Shown in pieces: positions 6,283 to 17,886 of a stretch of 40,542 nucleotides of DNA. Made by a program: the position numbers and the translations under genes. The stretch spans positions 1-40,542 of the forward strand of contig JALSSR010000209.1 in the NCBI GenBank assembly GCA_026984135.1, written 5' to 3'. Positions within the stretch are counted from its first letter, which is position 1; each line of letters opens with the position of its first letter. Source of the stretch: Bacteroidales bacterium. GTDB taxonomy: Bacteria > Bacteroidota > Bacteroidia > Bacteroidales > JAADJA01. Below the pieces are notes generated by a model, which worked only from the letters and a program-made list of their open reading frames with translations, made no database searches and was not told the DNA's origin.

Positions 6283-9045
6283 CTATTCCGCCTTATAAAA
6301 ATCCGGTAAAACACATTCATCACCGATACTTTTCAGGTAACTCCGAAAATCGCTGTTTAAACTTTCATGCATAACCTCGGAATCCTCCTCATGACAGGTC
6401 AGGCAGGCTCCGACAGTAAGTATCCGTTGTTGCTCTTCTGTTGTAAAGGGACGGAAATTTTCCCGTGTCGAATGCGAAAAAATGTTGCCGTAAAAATCCG
6501 TATTTGAAAAATCAAAGGGTATCCAGGCATCTTCCGGCAATCCGTCATTTTCATTATTCCGGTATTTCGATATGAAATTCCATTTCCCTCTTCCGTTTGC
6601 AATTTCATAAACCAGTTTACCTTCACCATATCCAATCGCTACGGGATTATTATGGCACGATTTGCAATTTCCGCCCTCTTTCACAATTGTATGGGGTTCG
6701 GCAGGAGCATATAGTCTATGAAAAAGATATCCTTCATCTTTCGAATAACTTCCTTTGTCAATACTCAATATCATCCCCGGAACAGCCGGTTTTACGTTTT
6801 CTCCATTCCTATCTTCAAAAACACCGAGTGTAGGTTGCATTGCAAGAAAGTCGCCGGAATATTCAACCCAGGTTCCCTTTTTCAGTTTGTCGGTAAGCAT
6901 ATCGTACCCATCGGTTTGCTGTTCGTAAACGTTGTGACAACCTATGCAACGCGGTGCCCAGGCTGTATGACAAGCACTACAACTCAGATCCTTATGGCCG
7001 CTCCCTCTTGTACATTTCTCTCCGGGGCCGTTAAGGCTAAAAACTTTCCCCGAATTCTTTCCAACCATAAGTGCAGAATTTCCATCCGCCAAAGTATTTA
7101 TCAAAGCTATTCCCGACTCCTTACCTTTAATATATTTGCTGTTTTTATTATTCCAGCCTTTCAAATCGGCTATCTTTCTCGATTCATAATCCAGTTTATC
7201 GTATGAAACCGTTTCCGGCATTTTTTCAAAATGACAATCTTCACATCTTATTTTCACTTGCTGTTCTTCGTGTGCATACAAGTTTCCGTCACCCATAATT
7301 TCATAAGAATTATGACAATCAATACAATCGAGACCTGCTTTATGATGCACATCTTCCGTCATCTTCACAAACACCCTGTAATCTTCCAAAATCCTGAATT
7401 CCGATGAATCCGGGATATCTTCTTTTGTGATTTCCGTTTCGTGCCACCCTTCGTAATTGGTTGAAATTCTGCCGGAACGACTATGACAACCGAAACAGTG
7501 TTCGTTCGTAATATTGAGTGATAGTGACGAATGAACAACAGGATTCGGCATATCATCACCCTTTCCGTTTTGATATTCCGAATGAGCAAGCAAAGCCTTT
7601 TCATTATAGTTCAAATGGCAGGCGTTGCATCCTCCGCCTCTCGAAAGTTCCGATATAGGACCCGTCTCGGCTTTGGGATTTCCAAGATGGCAAATCACAC
7701 ACAAATTGCGCAGATGCTCGTCGGCAGCAGAATTACCAAGATGATGAACATTGTTAAGGATTGACAGAGAATCCGATTCTCCGAAAACATATCTGTCAAC
7801 CGTTATCATTCCGCTTAAAGTGTTCATCAATGTTTTGTTGACACGTTCCGTAATAACGGGATGACATTTTGTTGTCCCGCAACTTTTGTCGGCATCTGCC
7901 ATATTTCCGGGAATAACTACCATACCTTTATGTGCTCTCTCTTTATTCAAAGAAAACGAATTTCCCCCGTGGCACGATACACAACCGATAGCCTTAGGAT
8001 TATGTGCCGGTGAAAATCCTTCAATGTTTTTGTGACAAATCATACAGCTCTCTTTGCGTCCGTTTATTGAAGGAATATCTTCGCTCCTGATATCCGTAAC
8101 ATCCTCACCGAATAACACCGGTTCCGGATTGAAAACATTCACAATATAATCCGTTCCTTTCCCGTCCCACGGAGTACGGAGTTCCCAATTTTCACCTCTG
8201 AAAAAATATCCGGTTATTGTTAAAACAACATATATATAAAATGTATAAAGAATTATTTTTTTAAAAATTTGAGAATTTTTCTCCCTCATTTGCGGAATCA
8301 GATACAAAAGCAGCAAGAGCCCAAAAACAATTATCAGTGATAATCCGGGATAAGTAAGCCGGTGCAATATCTCCTGAAAGCCGACAAAATACCAGGGACC
8401 TTTCATAACATTTGCGGTTTCTGTTTGCAAAGGTGCTTGAAAGAAAAAACTTAAAACAGATATTAATATTAAGGTATAAATAAATATTAACGTTCTTCCC
8501 CAAATGGTTTTTGAATGCTCAAAAATAATAAAAACCAAAAAAATAGTTGCGGTTGCAATGTGGTGAACATAAATTAATTGAAGATCATCTCCCTTTCCGA
8601 GGAGCGAAAAGGTAAGTAAATCACCCATAAAAGGTATTTTAGACATCAAACTTTTCATTATCAACCTCGCTTGAACCGCGTCACCGTCCCCTTTCAGAAT
8701 AAAGCCGGTTATCATTACAAAAAACACTACCAACACCGATATTGTAAGCCGAAACCATACTCCGGATTTAACTTTCTTTTCCCCCGACTTTTTGAGATGA
8801 TCCCAAATGTGTAAAAGAGTGAAGATTAAAAAAAGTTGGGCACTCCAGTAGTGCATATTGCGAAAGAAAACGGCAAACGGATTCATAATCAATATTGTAC
8901 CTATTGATTCAAACGGAGAGGCAACATCATAGGGAATTGCAAGAAAAATACCGCTCACCACAGTAATAAGAAAAAACGAAACTGCAAACAACCCGTACGT
9001 ATTCCGAATAAAAAAAGATGATATTGATCCTTGTTTGTTTATCAT
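6283..9045 (-). CDS. Cytochrome b (bc-type) fused to a dodecaheme cytochrome c domain
   Basis: N-terminal cytochrome b-like TM region with paired His and KGPWYFVGFQEIL (PEWY-like); 11 CXXCH plus one CX4CH (CGTTKCH). Confidence 0.9.
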   Translation of the reverse strand: MINKQGSISSFFIRNTYGLFAVSFFLITVVSGIFLAIPYDVASPFESIGTILIMNPFAVFFRNMHYWSAQLFLIFTLLHIWDHLKKSGEKKVKSGVWFRLTISVLVVFFVMITGFILKGDGDAVQARLIMKSLMSKIPFMGDLLTFSLLGKGDDLQLIYVHHIATATIFLVFIIFEHSKTIWGRTLIFIYTLILISVLSFFFQAPLQTETANVMKGPWYFVGFQEILHRLTYPGLSLIIVFGLLLLLYLIPQMREKNSQIFKKIILYTFYIYVVLTITGYFFRGENWELRTPWDGKGTDYIVNVFNPEPVLFGEDVTDIRSEDIPSINGRKESCMICHKNIEGFSPAHNPKAIGCVSCHGGNSFSLNKERAHKGMVVIPGNMADADKSCGTTKCHPVITERVNKTLMNTLSGMITVDRYVFGESDSLSILNNVHHLGNSAADEHLRNLCVICHLGNPKAETGPISELSRGGGCNACHLNYNEKALLAHSEYQNGKGDDMPNPVVHSSLSLNITNEHCFGCHSRSGRISTNYEGWHETEITKEDIPDSSEFRILEDYRVFVKMTEDVHHKAGLDCIDCHNSYEIMGDGNLYAHEEQQVKIRCEDCHFEKMPETVSYDKLDYESRKIADLKGWNNKNSKYIKGKESGIALINTLADGNSALMVGKNSGKVFSLNGPGEKCTRGSGHKDLSCSACHTAWAPRCIGCHNVYEQQTDGYDMLTDKLKKGTWVEYSGDFLAMQPTLGVFEDRNGENVKPAVPGMILSIDKGSYSKDEGYLFHRLYAPAEPHTIVKEGGNCKSCHNNPVAIGYGEGKLVYEIANGRGKWNFISKYRNNENDGLPEDAWIPFDFSNTDFYGNIFSHSTRENFRPFTTEEQQRILTVGACLTCHEEDSEVMHESLNSDFRSYLKSIGDECVLPDFYKAE

Positions 9046-9075: not shown

Positions 9076-9495
9076 TTATACCTTAATAATAATACTACCG
9101 TTTTGCTTTTTCAATTCCAATTGCTTTAATCTTTTTCGTGCCGGGCCTCTAACGGGCTCTCCGTTTATATCAAATCTCGAACCGTGACAGGGACAAACCG
9201 GTTCACCGTCAATTTCCCGGTTAATTATGCATCCGAGATGAGTGCATTTTGCGGAAAAAGCTTTTTCCTCGTCACTTTTTTTACAGATTATTACCTCATC
9301 GAAAAATGAAACACCTTCGGGAATATCATCTCTAATTTTCATAGGAGGTTTATCCGCCATTTTTTTATATCTTTTAACCGACCGGTACCATATATAAATA
9401 AATGGAAGAGCAATAACGACTCCTATAAACCGAACAAACTCCTTTCTTGATATTTTCTTTTTGTATTGCAATTTGTTTTTTTCAGTGAGCGTCAA
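9076..9495 (-). CDS. Rieske [2Fe-2S] protein
   Basis: CTHLGC ... CPCHGSRFD cluster motifs and an N-terminal TM segment. The track start 9495 is TTG; an alternative TTG gives MQYKKKISRKEF. Confidence 0.9.
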   Translation of the reverse strand: MTLTEKNKLQYKKKISRKEFVRFIGVVIALPFIYIWYRSVKRYKKMADKPPMKIRDDIPEGVSFFDEVIICKKSDEEKAFSAKCTHLGCIINREIDGEPVCPCHGSRFDINGEPVRGPARKRLKQLELKKQNGSIIIKV

Positions 9496-9830: not shown

Positions 9831-12074
9831 ATGACAAGTAGAAGGCAGTTTATAAAAATATCGGCAGCAGGGGTTGGAGCGGCAACAATTGGAATAAATG
9901 CAGCCAGTGGTTTCAATCTGTTCGGTAGTAAGGACGAAACCGGACCTGCAAGTGACGAAGATTTAACTCCGTACCCTACCTATTGCGAAGTCTGTTTTTG
10001 GAAATGTGCAGGCTGGGCATACGTTGATAAAAAAGGAAACATTCGAAAAATAATAGGGAATAAGAAAGACCCGCATTCAAACGGGAGATTATGCCCGCGG
10101 GGAACAGGCGGTATAGGGATGTATTATGATGAGGACAGATTAAAAACCCCTCTGATCAGGGAAACCGATTCGGAAGGAAATGACTATTTCAGAGAAGCAA
10201 CTTGGGATGAGGCATTAACAAAAGTTGCAGACAAGATGAAGCAAATAGCAAATAAGTATGGGCCTGAAGCTTTCGGATTATTTAATCACGGGAATCCCGG
10301 AGGCCACCTCGAACATCTTATGCGTGCATACGGCTCGGAAACTAATGCTGAACCTGCTTTTGCGCAATGCCGCGGGCCACGTTCAGTAGCATATTATTCT
10401 ACATTCGGAGCTTACATAGGCTCACCTGAAAATACCGATATCAGAGATACCCGATGCCTCGTTCTTATCGGTTCACATATCGGCGAAAATATGCACAACA
10501 GTCAGGTACAAGAAATGTCTCAGGCCATTGAAAACAAAGCAACCATTATTACCGTTGATCCGCGACTTAGTACCGCCGCCGGAAAATCCACTTTCTGGTT
10601 ACCGATTAAACCTGCAACAGACATTGCACTTTTGTTGGCCTGGATCCACGTTTTAATTTATGAAAACCTTTATAATAAAGAATTTATTGATCAATATGCT
10701 TTTGGTTTTGACCTTTTAAAAGAACATGTAAAAACAATGACACCCGAATGGGCATATGGCATTACAACTATTGAGCCTGAGATGATAAGAAGGACAGCAA
10801 GAGAGATGGCAGGAGCCGCACCAAATGTTGTTATACACCCGGGTCGTCATGCTGTTTGGTATGGAGATGATACTCAAAGAGAACGCGCAATGGCAATTTT
10901 AACGGCCTTACTTGGAGCGTGGGGCAAAAGAGGCAGTCTTTACTTTGCTGAGAAAATCAGCTTACCGCATTATCCTCAACCCGAGTATCCCGAACCGAAA
11001 TGGACTTGGCGTGATTTAAACAACGGTAAATACCAACTTGCAACTATGGGTATTACCACGGAATTGTTAAAAGCGTCAATTCCCGAAAACAACCCAAAAC
11101 ATCGGGTTAGAGCTTGGTTGGTTGCCGGAACCAACCTTCCGTTATCAATGCCCGACAAACAATTGTTTAAAAAAGCGGCAGATTCCGTAGAGTTTATAGC
11201 CGTAATGGATACAATGCCTATGGAGATTACAGGCTATGCAGATGTGGTATTACCGGAAGCAACATATTTGGAACGTTATGACTTTTTAAGGGCTTCGCAA
11301 AACAGAATTCCAAATGTTGCGTTGAGAATGCCTGCGGTAGAGCCCAAATATGATTCCAAACCGGGATGGTGGATTTCTAAAAAAATAGGTGAAAAACTGG
11401 GTTTGGATGAGTATTTTAACTATAACGACTACTCAGAAGTAATTGATTGGCAATTAAAACAAATAGGGACATCACTTGAAGAAATGAAAAAAATCGGCGT
11501 CAAGTCTTTCCCGAGAACGGAAGGCCCCCTCTATTTGGCCGACGGAGAAGATTTCGAGTTCAATACCAACTCCGGCAAAATAGAGTTATATTCTACAGAT
11601 TTGGCCGATGCAGGATTCGACCCTATTCCCGTTTATAAAAAGCATCCCGAACCACCACCAAACTTTTACAGGCTGATATATGGCAGAGCACCGATGCATA
11701 CTTTTTCACGTACATCAAACAATCATAATCTTTGGGATTTAATGAATGAAAACAACGTTTGGATAAATCCTAAGATAGCTGATATATGGGAACTTAAAAG
11801 CGGCGATTTTGTTTGGTTAAAAAATCAAGATAATGCCGTTACTACATTTCCGGTTAAAGTTAGGGTTACCGAAAGAATAAGATGGGATTCGGTTTATATG
11901 GTTCACGGTTTCGGTCACTCGGACAAAAAACTTTCCAGAGCTTACGGTAGAGGTGCAAGCGACGAAGAAATGATTACGAACGTTATGATAGACCCCATTA
12001 TGGGCGGCACCGGAATGAGAGGCAATTTTGTGACATTTTTAAAAGAAGATCCAAGGAAGGAGGTTAAAGCATGA
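9831..12074 (+). CDS. Molybdopterin oxidoreductase catalytic subunit, PsrA/PhsA-like (polysulfide/thiosulfate reductase family)
   Basis: Tat motif SRRQFIK; [4Fe-4S] motif CEVCFWKC...CPRG; candidate Mo-ligand Cys in AFAQCRGPRSVAYYSTFG; followed by PsrB- and PsrC-like genes. Confidence 0.88.
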   Translation: MTSRRQFIKISAAGVGAATIGINAASGFNLFGSKDETGPASDEDLTPYPTYCEVCFWKCAGWAYVDKKGNIRKIIGNKKDPHSNGRLCPRGTGGIGMYYDEDRLKTPLIRETDSEGNDYFREATWDEALTKVADKMKQIANKYGPEAFGLFNHGNPGGHLEHLMRAYGSETNAEPAFAQCRGPRSVAYYSTFGAYIGSPENTDIRDTRCLVLIGSHIGENMHNSQVQEMSQAIENKATIITVDPRLSTAAGKSTFWLPIKPATDIALLLAWIHVLIYENLYNKEFIDQYAFGFDLLKEHVKTMTPEWAYGITTIEPEMIRRTAREMAGAAPNVVIHPGRHAVWYGDDTQRERAMAILTALLGAWGKRGSLYFAEKISLPHYPQPEYPEPKWTWRDLNNGKYQLATMGITTELLKASIPENNPKHRVRAWLVAGTNLPLSMPDKQLFKKAADSVEFIAVMDTMPMEITGYADVVLPEATYLERYDFLRASQNRIPNVALRMPAVEPKYDSKPGWWISKKIGEKLGLDEYFNYNDYSEVIDWQLKQIGTSLEEMKKIGVKSFPRTEGPLYLADGEDFEFNTNSGKIELYSTDLADAGFDPIPVYKKHPEPPPNFYRLIYGRAPMHTFSRTSNNHNLWDLMNENNVWINPKIADIWELKSGDFVWLKNQDNAVTTFPVKVRVTERIRWDSVYMVHGFGHSDKKLSRAYGRGASDEEMITNVMIDPIMGGTGMRGNFVTFLKEDPRKEVKA

Positions 12075-12604
12075 GATACGCAATGGCTATTGACACTAAA
12101 AAGTGTGTAGGATGTGGCGACTGTGTTGTCGCCTGCCAAACCGAAAACAATGTACCACATGGTTATTGTCGCGATTGGATTGTTGAAAACGTCAGCGGAA
12201 GTTATCCCAGCGTACAGATAGAACTGCGCTCCGAACGTTGTAATCATTGCGATAACGCTCCCTGTGTAAGATGCTGTCCCACAGGTGCCAGTCATATTGT
12301 GGAAGGAGGAATAGTTCTGGTTACACACGATGAATGTATCGGGTGTGGAGCTTGTATCGAATCCTGCCCTTATGATGCCAGATATCCTCATCCCGAAGGG
12401 TATGTTGATAAATGTACATTTTGCAAACATCGCGTTGATAAGGGGCAAAATCCCGCTTGTGTTGACGTTTGTCCTACACATTGTCTTCATTTTGGCGATT
12501 TGGACGACCCTAACAGTGATGTTTCCAAAGCATTGAAAAACAGAAAATGGAAGGTATTGGCTCCCGAAGCAGGTACCGAACCTCAATTATATTTTCTTAC
12601 ATAA
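12071..12604 (+). CDS. 4Fe-4S ferredoxin subunit, PsrB-like
   Basis: CVGCGDCVVAC, CNHCDNAPCVRCCP, CIGCGACIESCP, CTFCKHRV...CVDVCP; overlaps the end of the upstream gene. Confidence 0.92.
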   Translation: MRYAMAIDTKKCVGCGDCVVACQTENNVPHGYCRDWIVENVSGSYPSVQIELRSERCNHCDNAPCVRCCPTGASHIVEGGIVLVTHDECIGCGACIESCPYDARYPHPEGYVDKCTFCKHRVDKGQNPACVDVCPTHCLHFGDLDDPNSDVSKALKNRKWKVLAPEAGTEPQLYFLT

Positions 12605-12623: not shown

Positions 12624-13565
12624 ATGAAAGAAGAATTATTTGTCAGCGGACGCGATATTCCCAATATTGATCCATATTTACATATTTGGCATTGGCAAAT
12701 TCCCCTCTACCTCTATCTTGGTGGTCTTGCAGCAGGAATTTTATTTTTTGCAACTTATTATGTTATTAAGGGAAAAGAAAAGCAAATGCAAACAACAGTT
12801 AAATGGGCAACAATTATTGCTCCTATCGCATTGGTAATAGGGCTTGGCGCCTTGTTCTGGGATTTAAAACACAAACTCTATTTTTGGCAGCTATATACAA
12901 CAATACGTTTTACTTCACCGATGTCGTGGGGTGCGTGGACATTGATGCTCATAACTCCAATGTCAATTGTTTGGGTGGCAAGTTATATGAAAGAGATGAT
13001 TCCCGGTTGGGATTGGAAATTCGGTTTTCTGAATAAATTTGAAGTCTGGATTATTAAAAATAGAGTACCTTTTGCTTGGATTATGATGATTCTTGCTGTC
13101 ATACTCGGGGTATATACCGGTATATTATTATCTGCATTTAATGCACGTCCTCTATGGAACACTTCGATATTAGGTCCCTTATTTTTAACTTCAGGGCTTT
13201 CGACCGGTCTGGCTGCAATAATGTGGATGTCAAAAGACGAACATGAACGAAAAACATTAAATAGAATAGATTTGATTTTGATTTTGGTGGAATTATTTTT
13301 AATTATCCATCTTTTTATGGGATTTATGGCAGGCTCTGCCGTTAAGACCGAAGCAGCCTCATTGTTTCTCGGGGGTGAGTTCACAGTTTCATTCTGGGTA
13401 TTCGTTATAATACTCGGTCTGGCTTTTCCTGCAACACTTGAAGCACTTGAATTACGCGGATTTCATGTTCCGGCCTGGCTACCTCCTTTTCTAATTTTAT
13501 TCGGTGGTCTTGTTTTTCGTTTTGTAATGGTTGAAGCAGGACAAATAACAAGGTTTTTGTATTAA
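12624..13565 (+). CDS. NrfD/PsrC-like polytopic membrane subunit
   Basis: 313 aa; multiple TM helices; HIWHWQIPLYLYLGGLAAGILF at the N-terminus. Confidence 0.9.
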   Translation: MKEELFVSGRDIPNIDPYLHIWHWQIPLYLYLGGLAAGILFFATYYVIKGKEKQMQTTVKWATIIAPIALVIGLGALFWDLKHKLYFWQLYTTIRFTSPMSWGAWTLMLITPMSIVWVASYMKEMIPGWDWKFGFLNKFEVWIIKNRVPFAWIMMILAVILGVYTGILLSAFNARPLWNTSILGPLFLTSGLSTGLAAIMWMSKDEHERKTLNRIDLILILVELFLIIHLFMGFMAGSAVKTEAASLFLGGEFTVSFWVFVIILGLAFPATLEALELRGFHVPAWLPPFLILFGGLVFRFVMVEAGQITRFLY

Positions 13566-13586: not shown

Positions 13587-14123
13587 ATGAAAAATATAAA
13601 TTCAAATAAAAACAGACCGCATTATATAAACCCCTATTTCGGGGGAGTACTTTTGGGTCTATTGGTAATTTTAACGGTTTACATAACAGGACGAGGCCTT
13701 GGTGCCAGCGGTGCCGTTAAAAGTGCCGTTGTTACGACAGCCGATGCCATTGTACCCATACATGCTCATACTAACCCATACTATAGCAAATTTATAAGCA
13801 GTGATAAATCTCCAATGTATAATTGGCTTGTATTCGAGTCGCTCGGGATATTTTTCGGTGGTTTGCTATCGGGAGTGATATTTCGAAGAGTAAAAAAAAT
13901 CAGAGTTGAAAGATCTCCGAAAATTACGAACAAAACCCGTTTAACGGCAGCACTCATCGGTGGTATTCTTTTTGGTATAGGCAGCCAGTTCGGCAGAGGG
14001 TGCTCCAGCGGAGCAGCCCTTAGCGGCAGTGCAACTTTTTCATTTGGCGGAGTTATAGTGATGCTTGTTCTTTTCGGTACGGGATATGCTATCGCAGGCT
14101 TATTTAAAAAATTATGGATTTAA
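13587..14123 (+). CDS. YeeE/YedE (sulfur transport) family protein, half 1
   Basis: GLGASGAVKSA and GIGSQFGRGCSSGAALSGSATFSFGG, typical YeeE/YedE Cys motif. Confidence 0.85.
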   Translation: MKNINSNKNRPHYINPYFGGVLLGLLVILTVYITGRGLGASGAVKSAVVTTADAIVPIHAHTNPYYSKFISSDKSPMYNWLVFESLGIFFGGLLSGVIFRRVKKIRVERSPKITNKTRLTAALIGGILFGIGSQFGRGCSSGAALSGSATFSFGGVIVMLVLFGTGYAIAGLFKKLWI

Positions 14124-14142: not shown

Positions 14143-14745
14143 ATGGGACCATTAATTCCAAACGGAGTAATTACAGGCGATTGGGATTTCGTTATCGCTT
14201 TGCTTATAGGTATTGCTTTCGGCTTTATCCTTGAGGCTTCCGGATTTTCATCCTCGAGAAACATCGCAGGTGTTTTCTATGGCTACAACTTTGTGGTTTT
14301 GCGCGTTTTCTTTACTGCCGTAATAGTTGCAATGACCGGATTGTTGTTTTTTGACTATTTCGGTTGGATTGAACTGGATAAAATATTTATTCTTCCAACC
14401 TATCTGACACCTATGATTGTCGGTTCAATAATTATGGGGTTCGGGTTTCTCCTCGGAGGATTTTGTCCCGGCACAAGTTATACGGCAATAGCTATAGGAA
14501 AACTGGACGGTATTGTGTTCACAATCGGTCTTTTCCTCGGTATTTTTTTATTTTCCGAAACATTTCCTCTTTTTAAGGATTTTTATTATAGCGGCTTTCT
14601 TGGAAATGTTACACTTACTGACGTAACCGGAATTCCGGCAGCTTGGTTTGCATTTGCTTTTACGGTTATTGCACTGGCTTCATTCTGGTTTACAATGATT
14701 ATTGAAAAACATATTAGAAAAAAAATTACGGAATATAAATTCTAA
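14143..14745 (+). CDS. YeeE/YedE (sulfur transport) family protein, half 2
   Basis: GFILEASGFSSSRNIAGVFYG and GGFCPGTSYTAIAIGKLDG. Confidence 0.85.
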   Translation: MGPLIPNGVITGDWDFVIALLIGIAFGFILEASGFSSSRNIAGVFYGYNFVVLRVFFTAVIVAMTGLLFFDYFGWIELDKIFILPTYLTPMIVGSIIMGFGFLLGGFCPGTSYTAIAIGKLDGIVFTIGLFLGIFLFSETFPLFKDFYYSGFLGNVTLTDVTGIPAAWFAFAFTVIALASFWFTMIIEKHIRKKITEYKF

Positions 14746-14749
14746 AACG

Positions 14750-15361
14750 ATGAATAGAAATTATATCTTACTGACAATATTAATGCTGGCTCTTGCAACC
14801 GGAACATTATTTCTTAAGAAAACACCGAATTACAATGAAATAAAACCTCAAAAACTACTTTGGGAAATCATTCAACCGACAAGATATGTTACTACCGACC
14901 AAGTGGCAAAAATGATCATAAACAAAGATCAAACGTTGGAACTTGTTGACGTCAGAGATACAAAATCTTATGAAAAATTTTCGCTTTCAGGAGCAATAAA
15001 CGTACCTTTGGATAGTATTGCCGCTACTTCAAATCAAGATTATTTCGGATTACCGGGCATTAAAGTTGTGTTTTATTCAAACGATGATATTGCTGCCGAC
15101 GAAGCCTGGGTTTTAACACGAAGATTAGGCTATAAAGATACATACGTTATGAAGGGCGGACTCAATTGTTGGATAAGAACCGTTATTCAACCTCAGCAAC
15201 CTTCTGAAGATGCTCCATATACTGAATTTGAAAAATATCATTTCAGAAAAGGTGCCCAAATTTATTTTACAGGAGCTAATATTGAACAAGGTTCTGCCGG
15301 CAAATCCAAAGTTTCTATTCGTAGAAAGAAAAAGAAAGCAGTAGCAGCCGGTGGTTGTTAA
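14750..15361 (+). CDS. Membrane-anchored rhodanese-like protein lacking the active-loop Cys, C-terminal KKKKAVAAGGC tail
   Basis: N-terminal TM; rhodanese pattern ELVDVRDTKSYEKFSLSGAINVPLD...VVFYSNDDIAADEAW...YVMKGGLNCW; tail RRKKKKAVAAGGC. ATG at 14750 chosen over 14702, which overlaps the previous gene. Confidence 0.85.
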   Translation: MNRNYILLTILMLALATGTLFLKKTPNYNEIKPQKLLWEIIQPTRYVTTDQVAKMIINKDQTLELVDVRDTKSYEKFSLSGAINVPLDSIAATSNQDYFGLPGIKVVFYSNDDIAADEAWVLTRRLGYKDTYVMKGGLNCWIRTVIQPQQPSEDAPYTEFEKYHFRKGAQIYFTGANIEQGSAGKSKVSIRRKKKKAVAAGGC

Positions 15362-15398
15362 TTTATAAAATTGGTCGTTATTAATAAAATTATATAAT

Positions 15399-16034
15399 AT
15401 GCACGTACACGATTTAAATCCCAAAAAAGCACTTGCAACAATAATTATCTTCGTTATAATTATTATTTTAGGTTTTGTTACCTTGAAGCGTCCAAAATTT
15501 ATTTATAAAGTAAGTTTGCAGGAAAGCATCGAACTGCTTAAAGATAAAAATGCATATTTTTATCCCTGGCAACTTGTTGATGTAATAAATAAAGTGGATA
15601 ATAATATTGTACTTATTGATATCAGGGATATTTTCAGTTATGGTCAAGGACATATTCCGGGTTCGGAAAATATTTCGGCTTATGATCTAACAAGCAAGAA
15701 ATATATTGAATATCTTAACCGTTTAAATGCCGAGGGCAAAACTGTTGTTCTTTACGGTAATGATCAATTGGAAGCTAATGGCCCTTGGATGTGGTTCAAA
15801 CAGGTAGGTTACGAAAATTTTAAAGTTCTTCTCGGAGGATATAAATATTATTTGGCACATAAAGATAATCTTGAAGAAACAAAAAGTGATAAAAGCTATA
15901 TTTTGGAAGTGCCTGACTTTAATTTTGCCGAAGTAGCCAATAAAGGTGCTTCCATACAAAGCACTACTAAAAATACAAAAGTACCGGTGATTAAAAGAAA
16001 AAAGAAAAAGACAGTAGCTGCCGGTGGCTGCTGA
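15399..16034 (+). CDS. Membrane-anchored rhodanese-like protein lacking the active-loop Cys, C-terminal KKKKTVAAGGC tail
   Basis: N-terminal TM; IVLIDIRDIFSYGQGHIPGSENIS...VVLYGNDQLEANGPW...VLLGGYKYY; the only Cys is the final residue. Confidence 0.85.
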   Translation: MHVHDLNPKKALATIIIFVIIIILGFVTLKRPKFIYKVSLQESIELLKDKNAYFYPWQLVDVINKVDNNIVLIDIRDIFSYGQGHIPGSENISAYDLTSKKYIEYLNRLNAEGKTVVLYGNDQLEANGPWMWFKQVGYENFKVLLGGYKYYLAHKDNLEETKSDKSYILEVPDFNFAEVANKGASIQSTTKNTKVPVIKRKKKKTVAAGGC

Positions 16035-16190: not shown

Positions 16191-16312
16191 CTGCCCATAA
16201 TTTTTGTTTACCAACAAACTACCTTCATAATGACCTGTTTTACAGATGCTTATAAATTTTGGTATAAACATTGAATAACATCGTTTTGCAAATCAAGGTT
16301 TTTGATATTAAA

Positions 16313-17083
16313 ATGGGAAAAGGAATTATAATATTAGGTAATCGCAACAGGAACAGAAACATATTCCGCTTGCTTTTATTGGTATGCCTGCTTTTTATGA
16401 TTTCTTTTCCCTCTTTCTCGCAATACAGCAAAAGGTTAAAACCAAAGAAATTCGAATGGACAAAGAACTGGGGAGTTAATCTGAATATGGGAGCAACCTC
16501 ATTTTTCGGAGATGTCAGTCTATATGATGACGACTATGCTGACAAACTTAAAAAGGAAAGTGCTGTTGGCTACGGCATAATCTTTTCCAGAAGAATAAAT
16601 TCCCTTTTCAAACTTGAGTTTCAGCTTTTAAAAGGCAAGCTCAAAGGAAAAAACTCCAAATCAAAATTTGAAGCAAATGTCTTGGAATACACTTTTAACG
16701 CAACCTTAAATATTGTAAACCTGTTGCTACCTGAAAACAATGGTCGTTTTTTCTTGTATGTTAAAACGGGATTCGGACAGTTCAGATTTTCATCAAGGCT
16801 TGCATACAAAGATCCTGAGAAAGAAGACAGGGTAGTTAATACCGGTGTTCCCGAGTTTGTCTTTCTTCTGGGTACGGGAGCATATTATTCGATAAGCCCG
16901 TCATTCGATTTCACTGCCGAAGTCAACGGCAGGATGACAAATAATGACCAGATTGACGGAACAAAAAACAAAAAGGATAAGGACTATTACTCCTATATGT
17001 CAATAGGGATTACATATAATATTAACAATGCGAAACAGCATTACAGAAAATTTAAGAAAACACCTTTAATCAGGAAATATTAA
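16313..17083 (+). CDS. Outer-membrane beta-barrel protein (paralogue 1)
   Basis: Signal peptide (FRLLLLVCLLFMISFPSFSQ); alternating beta pattern; paralogous to the next gene. Track start 16271 is TTG; ATG at 16313 preferred. Confidence 0.7.
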   Translation: MGKGIIILGNRNRNRNIFRLLLLVCLLFMISFPSFSQYSKRLKPKKFEWTKNWGVNLNMGATSFFGDVSLYDDDYADKLKKESAVGYGIIFSRRINSLFKLEFQLLKGKLKGKNSKSKFEANVLEYTFNATLNIVNLLLPENNGRFFLYVKTGFGQFRFSSRLAYKDPEKEDRVVNTGVPEFVFLLGTGAYYSISPSFDFTAEVNGRMTNNDQIDGTKNKKDKDYYSYMSIGITYNINNAKQHYRKFKKTPLIRKY

Positions 17084-17124: not shown

Positions 17125-17886
17125 GTGAAAAAGCAAATCAAATATTTAATCGTAGCAGTTTTGTTTGTCTCAATGGCAATTCCCGAAACAGTAAACAGTC
17201 AAGGTTGGGGCGGACGTTGGAAACCCGGATTCTGGGATAATTGGTCGGTGAACGTAAATGGCGGCTTAACATCATTCTTCGGTGACTTAAGTTTATATGA
17301 TACCGATATTGCCGAGAAACTTTCAAAGGAGAGCGGACCTGCTTTCGGTATGCTTATGTCGAAATATCTTTCGCAAGATAGATTTGCCATTACAGGTCAA
17401 TTGTTATATGGCACCCTCAAGGGGCAAAACTCAACAACAATGTTTAATGCCAGTATCATTGAATATAATCTTCAGGGAAGGGTATATTTTTTAAATCTTT
17501 TCTCACCTGATAACCTGTCAAACTTTGATATTGTCGGATATGCAGGGTTGGGACAATTCAAATTTAAAAGTGAACAGTATAAAATAGAAGATCCGTCAGA
17601 TAAGTCAATTGAAGATACGGGTACTCCGGAATTTGTATATTTCTTCGGATTCGGAATTGAATATAAATTCCTGGACAAATTTGGCATAACCGCCGATATG
17701 GGGATGCGTCAGGCTCAAAATGACAAACTTGATGACCTTGTAAAAAATAAAAACTACGACTATTACAGTTACCTGAGTTTTGGGTTTACATACTATATTG
17801 ACAGTTTTAAGAAATCATCAAGAAGAGGTGGCAGATCATCTTCATTCAGAAGTCACGGAAGAGCTCCAATGAGAAGAAGAAGGTAG
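17125..17886 (+). CDS. Outer-membrane beta-barrel protein (paralogue 2), GTG start
   Basis: Signal peptide; NWSVNVNGGLTSFFGDLSLYD matches paralogue 1 (NWGVNLNMGATSFFGDVSLYD). Confidence 0.7.
   Translation: MKKQIKYLIVAVLFVSMAIPETVNSQGWGGRWKPGFWDNWSVNVNGGLTSFFGDLSLYDTDIAEKLSKESGPAFGMLMSKYLSQDRFAITGQLLYGTLKGQNSTTMFNASIIEYNLQGRVYFLNLFSPDNLSNFDIVGYAGLGQFKFKSEQYKIEDPSDKSIEDTGTPEFVYFFGFGIEYKFLDKFGITADMGMRQAQNDKLDDLVKNKNYDYYSYLSFGFTYYIDSFKKSSRRGGRSSSFRSHGRAPMRRRR

Follow-up and report, generated by a model that had tools for sequence, protein, structure and literature searches.

Rhodanese-like proteins with a conserved C-terminal cysteine arm as candidate sulfur carriers for a split YeeE transporter in Bacteroidota

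How importers of the YeeE family obtain their cargo outside the cell is an open question; for the YeeE-like SoxT, feeding by periplasmic, persulfidated SoxYZ has only been proposed, in sulfur oxidisers (PMC11582611). The 40,542-bp contig JALSSR010000209.1 of a Bacteroidales bacterium (assembly GCA_026984135.1), referred to below as the window, contains a split transporter of this family followed by two adjacent genes for rhodanese-like proteins, here called P1 and P2. Both proteins lack the cysteine of the catalytic loop and both end with a cysteine in the same basic tail. The question raised by the locus is what this terminal thiol does, and for which partner. The two genes and their tails are:

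14750..15361, plus strand: P1 (203 aa, ATG start), assigned by Pfam match, alignment and AlphaFold2; transmembrane anchor helix 3–20, rhodanese domain approximately 45–150 without loop Cys, conserved helix 157–174, linker 176–190 predicted to be disordered, then a basic stretch and the terminal GGC (C203)
15326..15361, plus strand: P1 tail, KKKKAVAAGGC and the stop codon; terminal Cys codon 15356–15358
15399..16034, plus strand: P2 (211 aa), assigned by Pfam match, alignment and AlphaFold2; transmembrane anchor helix 8–28, rhodanese domain with Gly in the loop, linker, basic stretch, terminal GGC (C211)
15999..16034, plus strand: P2 tail, KKKKTVAAGGC and the stop codon; terminal Cys codon 16029–16031

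Architecture of P1 and P2

Rhodanese (PF00581) is the sole Pfam domain above the cut-off in both proteins (53.9 bits each, E~1e-14, with the cut-off of 22.2 bits). Membership in the rhodanese family thus follows from the profile for both proteins and from the fold for P1, whose model matched solved rhodanese domains with the Foldseek probability of 1.00. No model in Pfam or NCBIfam sets the P1/P2 type apart from the general rhodanese. AlphaFold2, run on input alignments of 36 and 24 sequences, gave the same picture for P1 and P2: an N-terminal helix, a high-confidence rhodanese fold and a tail whose pLDDT stays under 50, that is, an arm predicted to be disordered. The C-terminus reads IRRKKKKAVAAGGC in P1 and IKRKKKKTVAAGGC in P2, the tails being RRKKKKAVAAGGC and KRKKKKTVAAGGC, respectively. 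A TTG-started frame, which overlaps yeeE2, opens at 14702. Downstream of P2, two similar neighbouring proteins resembling outer-membrane beta-barrels are encoded on the plus strand (16271–17083 and 17125–17886 of the window).

The catalytic loop is VVFYSNDD in P1 and VVLYGNDQ in P2, with Ser110 and Gly120, respectively, at the first loop position, where a catalytically active rhodanese carries cysteine. The final residue of P2, C211, is the only cysteine in the protein; P1 has one further cysteine, C140 in GGLNCW, common to just 32 of 80 homologues. The original prediction had described both proteins as an anchor, a rhodanese domain with a cysteine-less loop, a long linker and a polybasic stretch before the final AAGGC, with the terminal residue of P2 as its only cysteine, and this description was borne out in full.

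Distribution of the tail and selection acting on it

P1 homologues were found in 98 of 246 searched genomes from the order of the source organism. A scan of named genomes yielded 80 loci; it was seeded with the pattern [YF][VI]MKGGLN, so that conservation of this pattern within the named set is biased by the selection. The set includes Draconibacterium, Maribellus, Prolixibacteraceae, Lentimicrobiaceae and many uncultured Bacteroidales and Bacteroidetes, and a few loci are filed, by the database label, under other phyla (Chlorobiota, Neomarinimicrobiota). Wherever the C-terminus of P1 is complete (79 homologues), it finishes in GGC, either alone or with one more residue behind it; the 80th homologue is cut by the contig end and left out of the count. 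The terminal GGC is also present in 73 of 76 P2 homologues, a count that leaves out locus L069, where the P2 frame stops short of the tail. The three tail-less P2 proteins are lipoproteins; they share the conserved end FDE[ED]CPDLN (L103:10554–11195, L108:9983–10612 and L114:10644–11276).

In the phylum-wide sample, homologues occur in 60 of 396 genomes. All 30 resolved rhodanese ORFs, which come from 28 of the 29 inspected loci chosen without regard to the tail, finish in basic residues followed by [G/E]GC. In Chondrinema litorale the cluster is plasmid-borne; P1 (WP_284687217.1) ends in KKKKKVQGGCS, and P2 is short and lacks the tail. Gemmatirosa (Gemmatimonadota) has the arrangement YeeE1-YeeE2-P1 with the loop LYSEGG and the tail RLRRRGC, adjoined by a gene for a thiosulfate-sulfurtransferase-like (TST-like) protein. 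In one lineage (L232, L233, L234) AGGLC plus one residue stands in place of GGC, which suggests that the cysteine, rather than the exact GGC, is the element kept. Tails of the types KKKxVAAGGC and EEEEGGC both occur among the genomes. The tail appears dispensable for some copies, given the tail-less P2 lipoproteins and the short P2 of Chondrinema.

At the loop position, 73 of the 80 P1 homologues have Ser, three have Ala and three have Cys. The wider set gives Ser 21, Gly 14, Ala 6 and Cys 3; these are 44 rows in which some loci are counted twice, and one of the three Cys rows is a P3-type protein (see below). Loop cysteine and tail occur together in three P1 homologues of the named set and in two of the wider set. 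The rhodanese part of the wider Bacteroidota homologues usually contains no other cysteine, the loop residue being Ser, Gly or Ala.

When the source genome (G000) and a closed genome (G380) were scanned for ORFs of at least 60 aa finishing exactly in GGC, only the P1/P2 gene pair was returned. Together with the 79 of 79 complete P1 proteins and the 30 of 30 ORFs of the phylum sample, this places the terminal GGC beyond chance. A general C-terminal sorting signal is not supported, as no other such ORF exists in either genome. A locally degenerate pair, which the original prediction had named as a reading that would refute it, is ruled out by homologues with the same tail in the order, the named set and the phylum: the tail is conserved and the loop cysteine is rare. 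The absent loop cysteine and the fixed terminal cysteine on a flexible basic arm are, as judged from these alignments, an architecture conserved phylum-wide.

The mean column conservation in P1 equals 0.65 for the rhodanese domain, 0.33 for the linker, 0.64 for the basic stretch and 1.00 for GGC; the alignment was GGC-filtered, yet every complete P1 in the 80 loci has GGC. The linker, with 33–35% mean column conservation, thus lies between a conserved domain and an invariant end. Between the last conserved helix and the cysteine, the arm spans 29–39 residues in P1 and 38–45 in P2, and the median net charge of the final 16 residues is +4.

Comparison of P1 with P2 over the nine residues preceding GGC gave 74% identity inside one genome and 42% across genomes, a difference matched by no shuffle. 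For the rhodanese domains the respective values are 24.4% and 23.5%. The effect was retained among 13 representatives with less than 60% domain identity (tails 54% vs 29%, 0 of 5000 shuffles; domains 26.0% vs 24.3%). Where P1 and P2 have the same tail residue, the codon differs in 58% of cases, compared with 52% expected under random codon choice, which speaks against recent gene conversion of the tails. In the tree built without tails, the split between P1 and P2 appears to predate the sampled lineages, and therefore independent evolution of the tails would give no within-genome excess. Tails that match within genomes, alongside domains without such a match and randomised codons, mean that the tail is under selection. 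The original prediction had derived selection from the similarity of the two tails; this similarity alone is no proof, and the claim is sustained by the codon analysis together with the contrast between tails and domains. The tails of P1 and P2 thus give every sign of co-evolving, and most simply both would track one shared docking partner.

Gene neighbourhood, membrane side and related tailed proteins

The genes preceding P1 in the window are:

9831..12074, plus strand: PsrA/PhsA-like molybdopterin oxidoreductase with a Tat signal and the conserved FAQC180RGPRS
12071..12604, plus strand: PsrB-like 4Fe-4S subunit (profile matches)
12624..13565, plus strand: PsrC/NrfD-like membrane subunit (profile matches)
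13587..14123, plus strand: YeeE1, C-terminal half of a YeeE/YedE transporter (PmpA-like), Pfam Sulf_transp positions 177–308
14143..14745, plus strand: YeeE2, N-terminal half of a YeeE/YedE transporter (PmpB-like), Pfam Sulf_transp positions 3–152

The best family match of the PsrA-like protein is PhsA (NF012032, 444 bits, below the equivalog cut-off of 694), and we refer to it as PhsA/PsrA-like. YeeE1 and YeeE2 have the makeup of a split YedE1E2/PmpAB transporter, with two half-length PF04143 proteins and one conserved cysteine per half (C139 of YeeE1 in 77 of 77 sequences; C108 of YeeE2, in GGFCPGTS, in 78 of 79). Being half-length, they score 36.7 and 21 bits with the TsuA/YeeE model NF052577, under its cut-off of 400.

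The gene order in the named loci is psrA-psrB-psrC-yeeE1-yeeE2-P1-P2, and psrA, yeeE1 and yeeE2 are all found in each of the 58 named loci with more than 6 kb of upstream sequence. Of the 246 genomes in the order-level sample, 96 contain YeeE1 as well as P1, and 144 contain neither of the two. Four genomes seemingly having YeeE1 only contain a fused rhodanese ending in GGCS or GGLC[GS], and one of the two seemingly having P1 only (L235) has YeeE1 after all. A search of the source genome for SoxY, run without a positive control, gave no match; no TusA gene lies within the operon, TusA genes being located elsewhere in the genome.

Divergently from psrA, the minus strand of the window encodes a fusion protein made up of a cytochrome b and a large multihaem cytochrome c part (6283–9045), followed by a Rieske protein (9076–9495). 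This pair recurs by the psr cluster in about a quarter of the named loci and probably serves as its partner in electron transfer.

The transporter is tied to the rhodanese more closely than the enzyme is. In 14 fetched loci a P1-type rhodanese is fused to YeeE2; one of them (L218) lies by psrABC and 13 lie by octahaem cytochrome genes (L214, L215, L219, L221, L223, L224, L227, L231–L234, L236, L238). The latter represent a conserved Bacteroidota gene group consisting of an octahaem cytochrome, YeeE1 and the YeeE2-rhodanese fusion, in most cases together with a b561-type cytochrome; the octahaem gene is upstream of the fusion, and psrABC is absent. The four loci scored against the octahaem tetrathionate reductase family (TIGR04315) gave 548–590 bits, with the cut-off of 375. 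In the tail-free tree the fusions fall inside or beside the P1 group in at least two separate places. In L235 and L237, which have YeeE1-YeeE2-rhodanese, no psrABC or octahaem match was found within 15–16 kb.

Because YeeE2-rhodanese fusions lie beside octahaem genes elsewhere, gene context indicates that the constant partner of the tailed rhodanese is the split YedE1E2-type importer and not PsrABC. The conserved module, so read, consists of split YeeE and the tailed rhodanese and is joined to two unrelated enzymes; a dedicated PsrABC subunit is ruled out as the general rule by the octahaem loci, which have the module without psrABC. The partners named by the original prediction, a PsrABC-like enzyme and a YeeE/YedE-like transporter, are therefore retained in part: the location outside the cytoplasm and the tie to the transporter stand, and PsrABC is not obligate, as the 13 octahaem fusion loci demonstrate.

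The same comparison bears on the suggestion that the arm feeds the periplasmic reductase, the tail cysteine inserting polysulfide or S-thiosulfonate into PsrA or the octahaem cytochrome while YeeE1E2 handles an ion. One of these two unrelated sulfur oxidoreductases adjoins the module in nearly all examined loci, an extended arm of 30–40 residues would reach the enzyme, and its positive charge suits an anionic cargo. However, the enzyme is exchangeable and YeeE1/YeeE2 are constant, it is YeeE2 that fuses to the rhodanese, L235 and L237 have neither enzyme nearby, and the module of Gemmatirosa stands beside the TST-like gene. As the reductase is interchangeable and the transporter is not, this reading is weaker than delivery to the transporter, and we consider it unlikely.

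Several observations concern the side of the membrane. In L103, L108 and L114 the lipobox of P2 replaces the transmembrane helix at the same operon position; P2 of L014 is a lipoprotein (GSCSS near the N-terminus) that retains the tail, and the P3 proteins described below are lipoprotein-like and carry the same tail. In the YeeE2-rhodanese fusions, a basic stretch precedes the transmembrane helix leading into the rhodanese domain, as fits an inside-to-outside passage of the sequence. Given the lipoprotein orthologues of P2 and P3, both P1 and P2 are assigned from their sequences to the extracytoplasmic side.

P3 is a double-rhodanese lipoprotein encoded directly after P2, with the tail in 12 of the 18 copies assigned to it and the loop cysteine of the second domain usually intact (examples are L094:11314–12462, L095:3455–4582 and L101:6285–7442). 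TST-like two-domain proteins with a signal-type N-terminus, a loop cysteine and the GGC tail are encoded approximately 6–8 kb upstream of P1 (L056:1904–2860, L057:3663–4613, L071:2096–3031), three of four such proteins having the tail. The presence of the same tail on P3 and TST-like proteins makes it a transferable element. Most of these proteins retain the loop cysteine along with the tail, and hence the tail may supplement that cysteine instead of taking its place. The original claim that the thiol had moved from the loop to the arm accordingly needs rewording: in P1 and P2 the loop cysteine is lost and the terminal one is fixed throughout the phylum, but the same tail is found where the loop cysteine is present.

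Matched tails could also belong to an assembly element carrying no sulfur, in which the terminal cysteines of P1, P2 and P3 form disulfides or the basic GGC end is a docking or lipid-attachment signal. A basic stretch preceding a C-terminal cysteine resembles membrane-attachment signals elsewhere, and tails of P1, P2 and P3 that match per genome are what one docking site or mutual partners would produce. Against this, in many genomes the locus encodes just one tailed protein or one YeeE2 fusion and offers it no pairing partner, the fusions are already held in the membrane by the transporter half, and the restriction of GGC ends to the P1/P2 pair in G000 and G380 disagrees with a general sorting signal. 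Lipidation of a C-terminal periplasmic cysteine is, to our knowledge, not known from bacteria. We regard an assembly role as quite improbable.

Proposed mechanism and comparison with known systems

The reading we lean towards, with some reserve, is that P1 and P2 are swinging-arm sulfur carriers for the split YeeE importer, the cargo being sulfane sulfur or thiosulfate, in analogy to SoxYZ with SoxT. The proteins would be tethered to the membrane outside the cytoplasm and dedicated to the importer of the YedE1E2/PmpAB type. The rhodanese body, having lost the sulfurtransferase chemistry of the loop, would dock partners or bind a sulfur oxyanion, and the reactive group would be the lone cysteine at the tip of the positively charged, disordered arm of some 30–40 residues. 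Sulfane sulfur would be bound by this cysteine in the form of a persulfide or an S-thiosulfonate. The source or user of the sulfur would be the adjacent periplasmic enzyme, which is PsrABC-like here and the octahaem cytochrome with cytochrome b561 elsewhere; alternatively, the arm might be loaded by a catalytic rhodanese such as P3, which we infer to be a natural loader of P1 and P2. The arm would then swing to the outer mouth of YeeE1-YeeE2, whose two conserved cysteines would relay the sulfur inward. In this scheme we infer that the thiol becomes loaded, what it carries, which way the sulfur moves and that YeeE receives it.

A conserved lone thiol on a mobile tail beside a transporter might instead belong to a redox or sulfur sensor regulating this transporter, or to a donor of metal (e.g. 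copper) or haem that inserts a cofactor. Inactive rhodanese domains elsewhere serve regulation or binding. Among the chosen queries, however, no regulator or cofactor gene is conserved with the module, and the recognised partners are all sulfur-handling enzymes, so that we hold a sensor or donor to be very improbable.

If P1 and P2 are carriers, they may constitute a new class, in which a catalytically silent rhodanese body with a disordered, basic single-cysteine arm loads a two-subunit YeeE from outside by protein-to-protein transfer (group translocation), with two or three carriers having similar tails in a genome, with two unrelated respiratory sulfur enzymes and with a range from Bacteroidota into Gemmatimonadota. 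For this complete formulation we would claim slightly less than an even chance. The parts are known (the rhodanese fold, YedE1E2, the Psr and octahaem enzymes, C-terminal cysteine arms), and we found no description of their combination: the open-access papers searched contain none of a system joining a rhodanese with a terminal cysteine and a YeeE pair. It looks like a so far undescribed way of handing sulfur to a split transporter. Candidate donor and transporter cannot be separated genetically and are at times fused, and the donor carries a single invariant thiol, which makes the mechanism addressable by one point mutation. More generally, "inactive" rhodaneses, annotated merely as rhodanese-like, can retain a thiol where annotation does not look, and the tail is a marker for a sulfur-handling module without a name in the searched databases.

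GlpE and YgaP belong to the same domain family and fold as P1 and P2, in which the loop cysteine is changed to Ser, Gly or Ala and the conserved thiol is on the disordered C-terminal arm. The closest likeness in the arm is to SoxYZ, which carries sulfur on a Gly-flanked C-terminal cysteine, the GGCGG swinging arm (as summarised in PMC6067878, citing Sauve 2007). Both are extracytoplasmic, P1 and P2 by their sequences, with the Gly-flanked cysteine on a C-terminal arm. Unlike SoxYZ, P1 and P2 have a rhodanese body, are anchored in the membrane, end with the cysteine in the last or next-to-last position after a basic stretch, and have a partner of the split YedE1E2 type. Neither of them matches SoxY (PF13501) in Pfam, and GGC followed by zero or one residue is similar to GGCGG but not the same.

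PsrABC/PhsABC and the octahaem cytochromes of TIGR04315 are neighbours and presumed partners of the module, either one of which occurs, and not homologues of P1 and P2. YeeD/TsuB, like P1 and P2, is a small sulfur partner with one key cysteine that can be fused to the transporter YeeE/TsuA, and it has been placed as an additional cysteine at the inner face of YeeE (PMC11073785). YeeD is a cytoplasmic protein of the TusA type, whereas P1 and P2 have the rhodanese fold and are assigned outside the cytoplasm; their cysteine would be the outer-face equivalent of that of YeeD. For the importer itself, the two-half organisation is known from PmpAB and YedE1E2 (PMC11582611, PMC10812762). YedE1E2, studied on proteobacterial proteins only, imports zero-valent sulfur and needs one cysteine in each half, and its halves have been found almost only in Proteobacteria (PMC10812762). 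YeeE1 and YeeE2 are like YedE1E2 and PmpAB in being adjacent half-transporter genes with one conserved cysteine each. In contrast to these, every examined copy of the Bacteroidota split YeeE has a rhodanese-like protein with a terminal cysteine as its companion or fusion partner.
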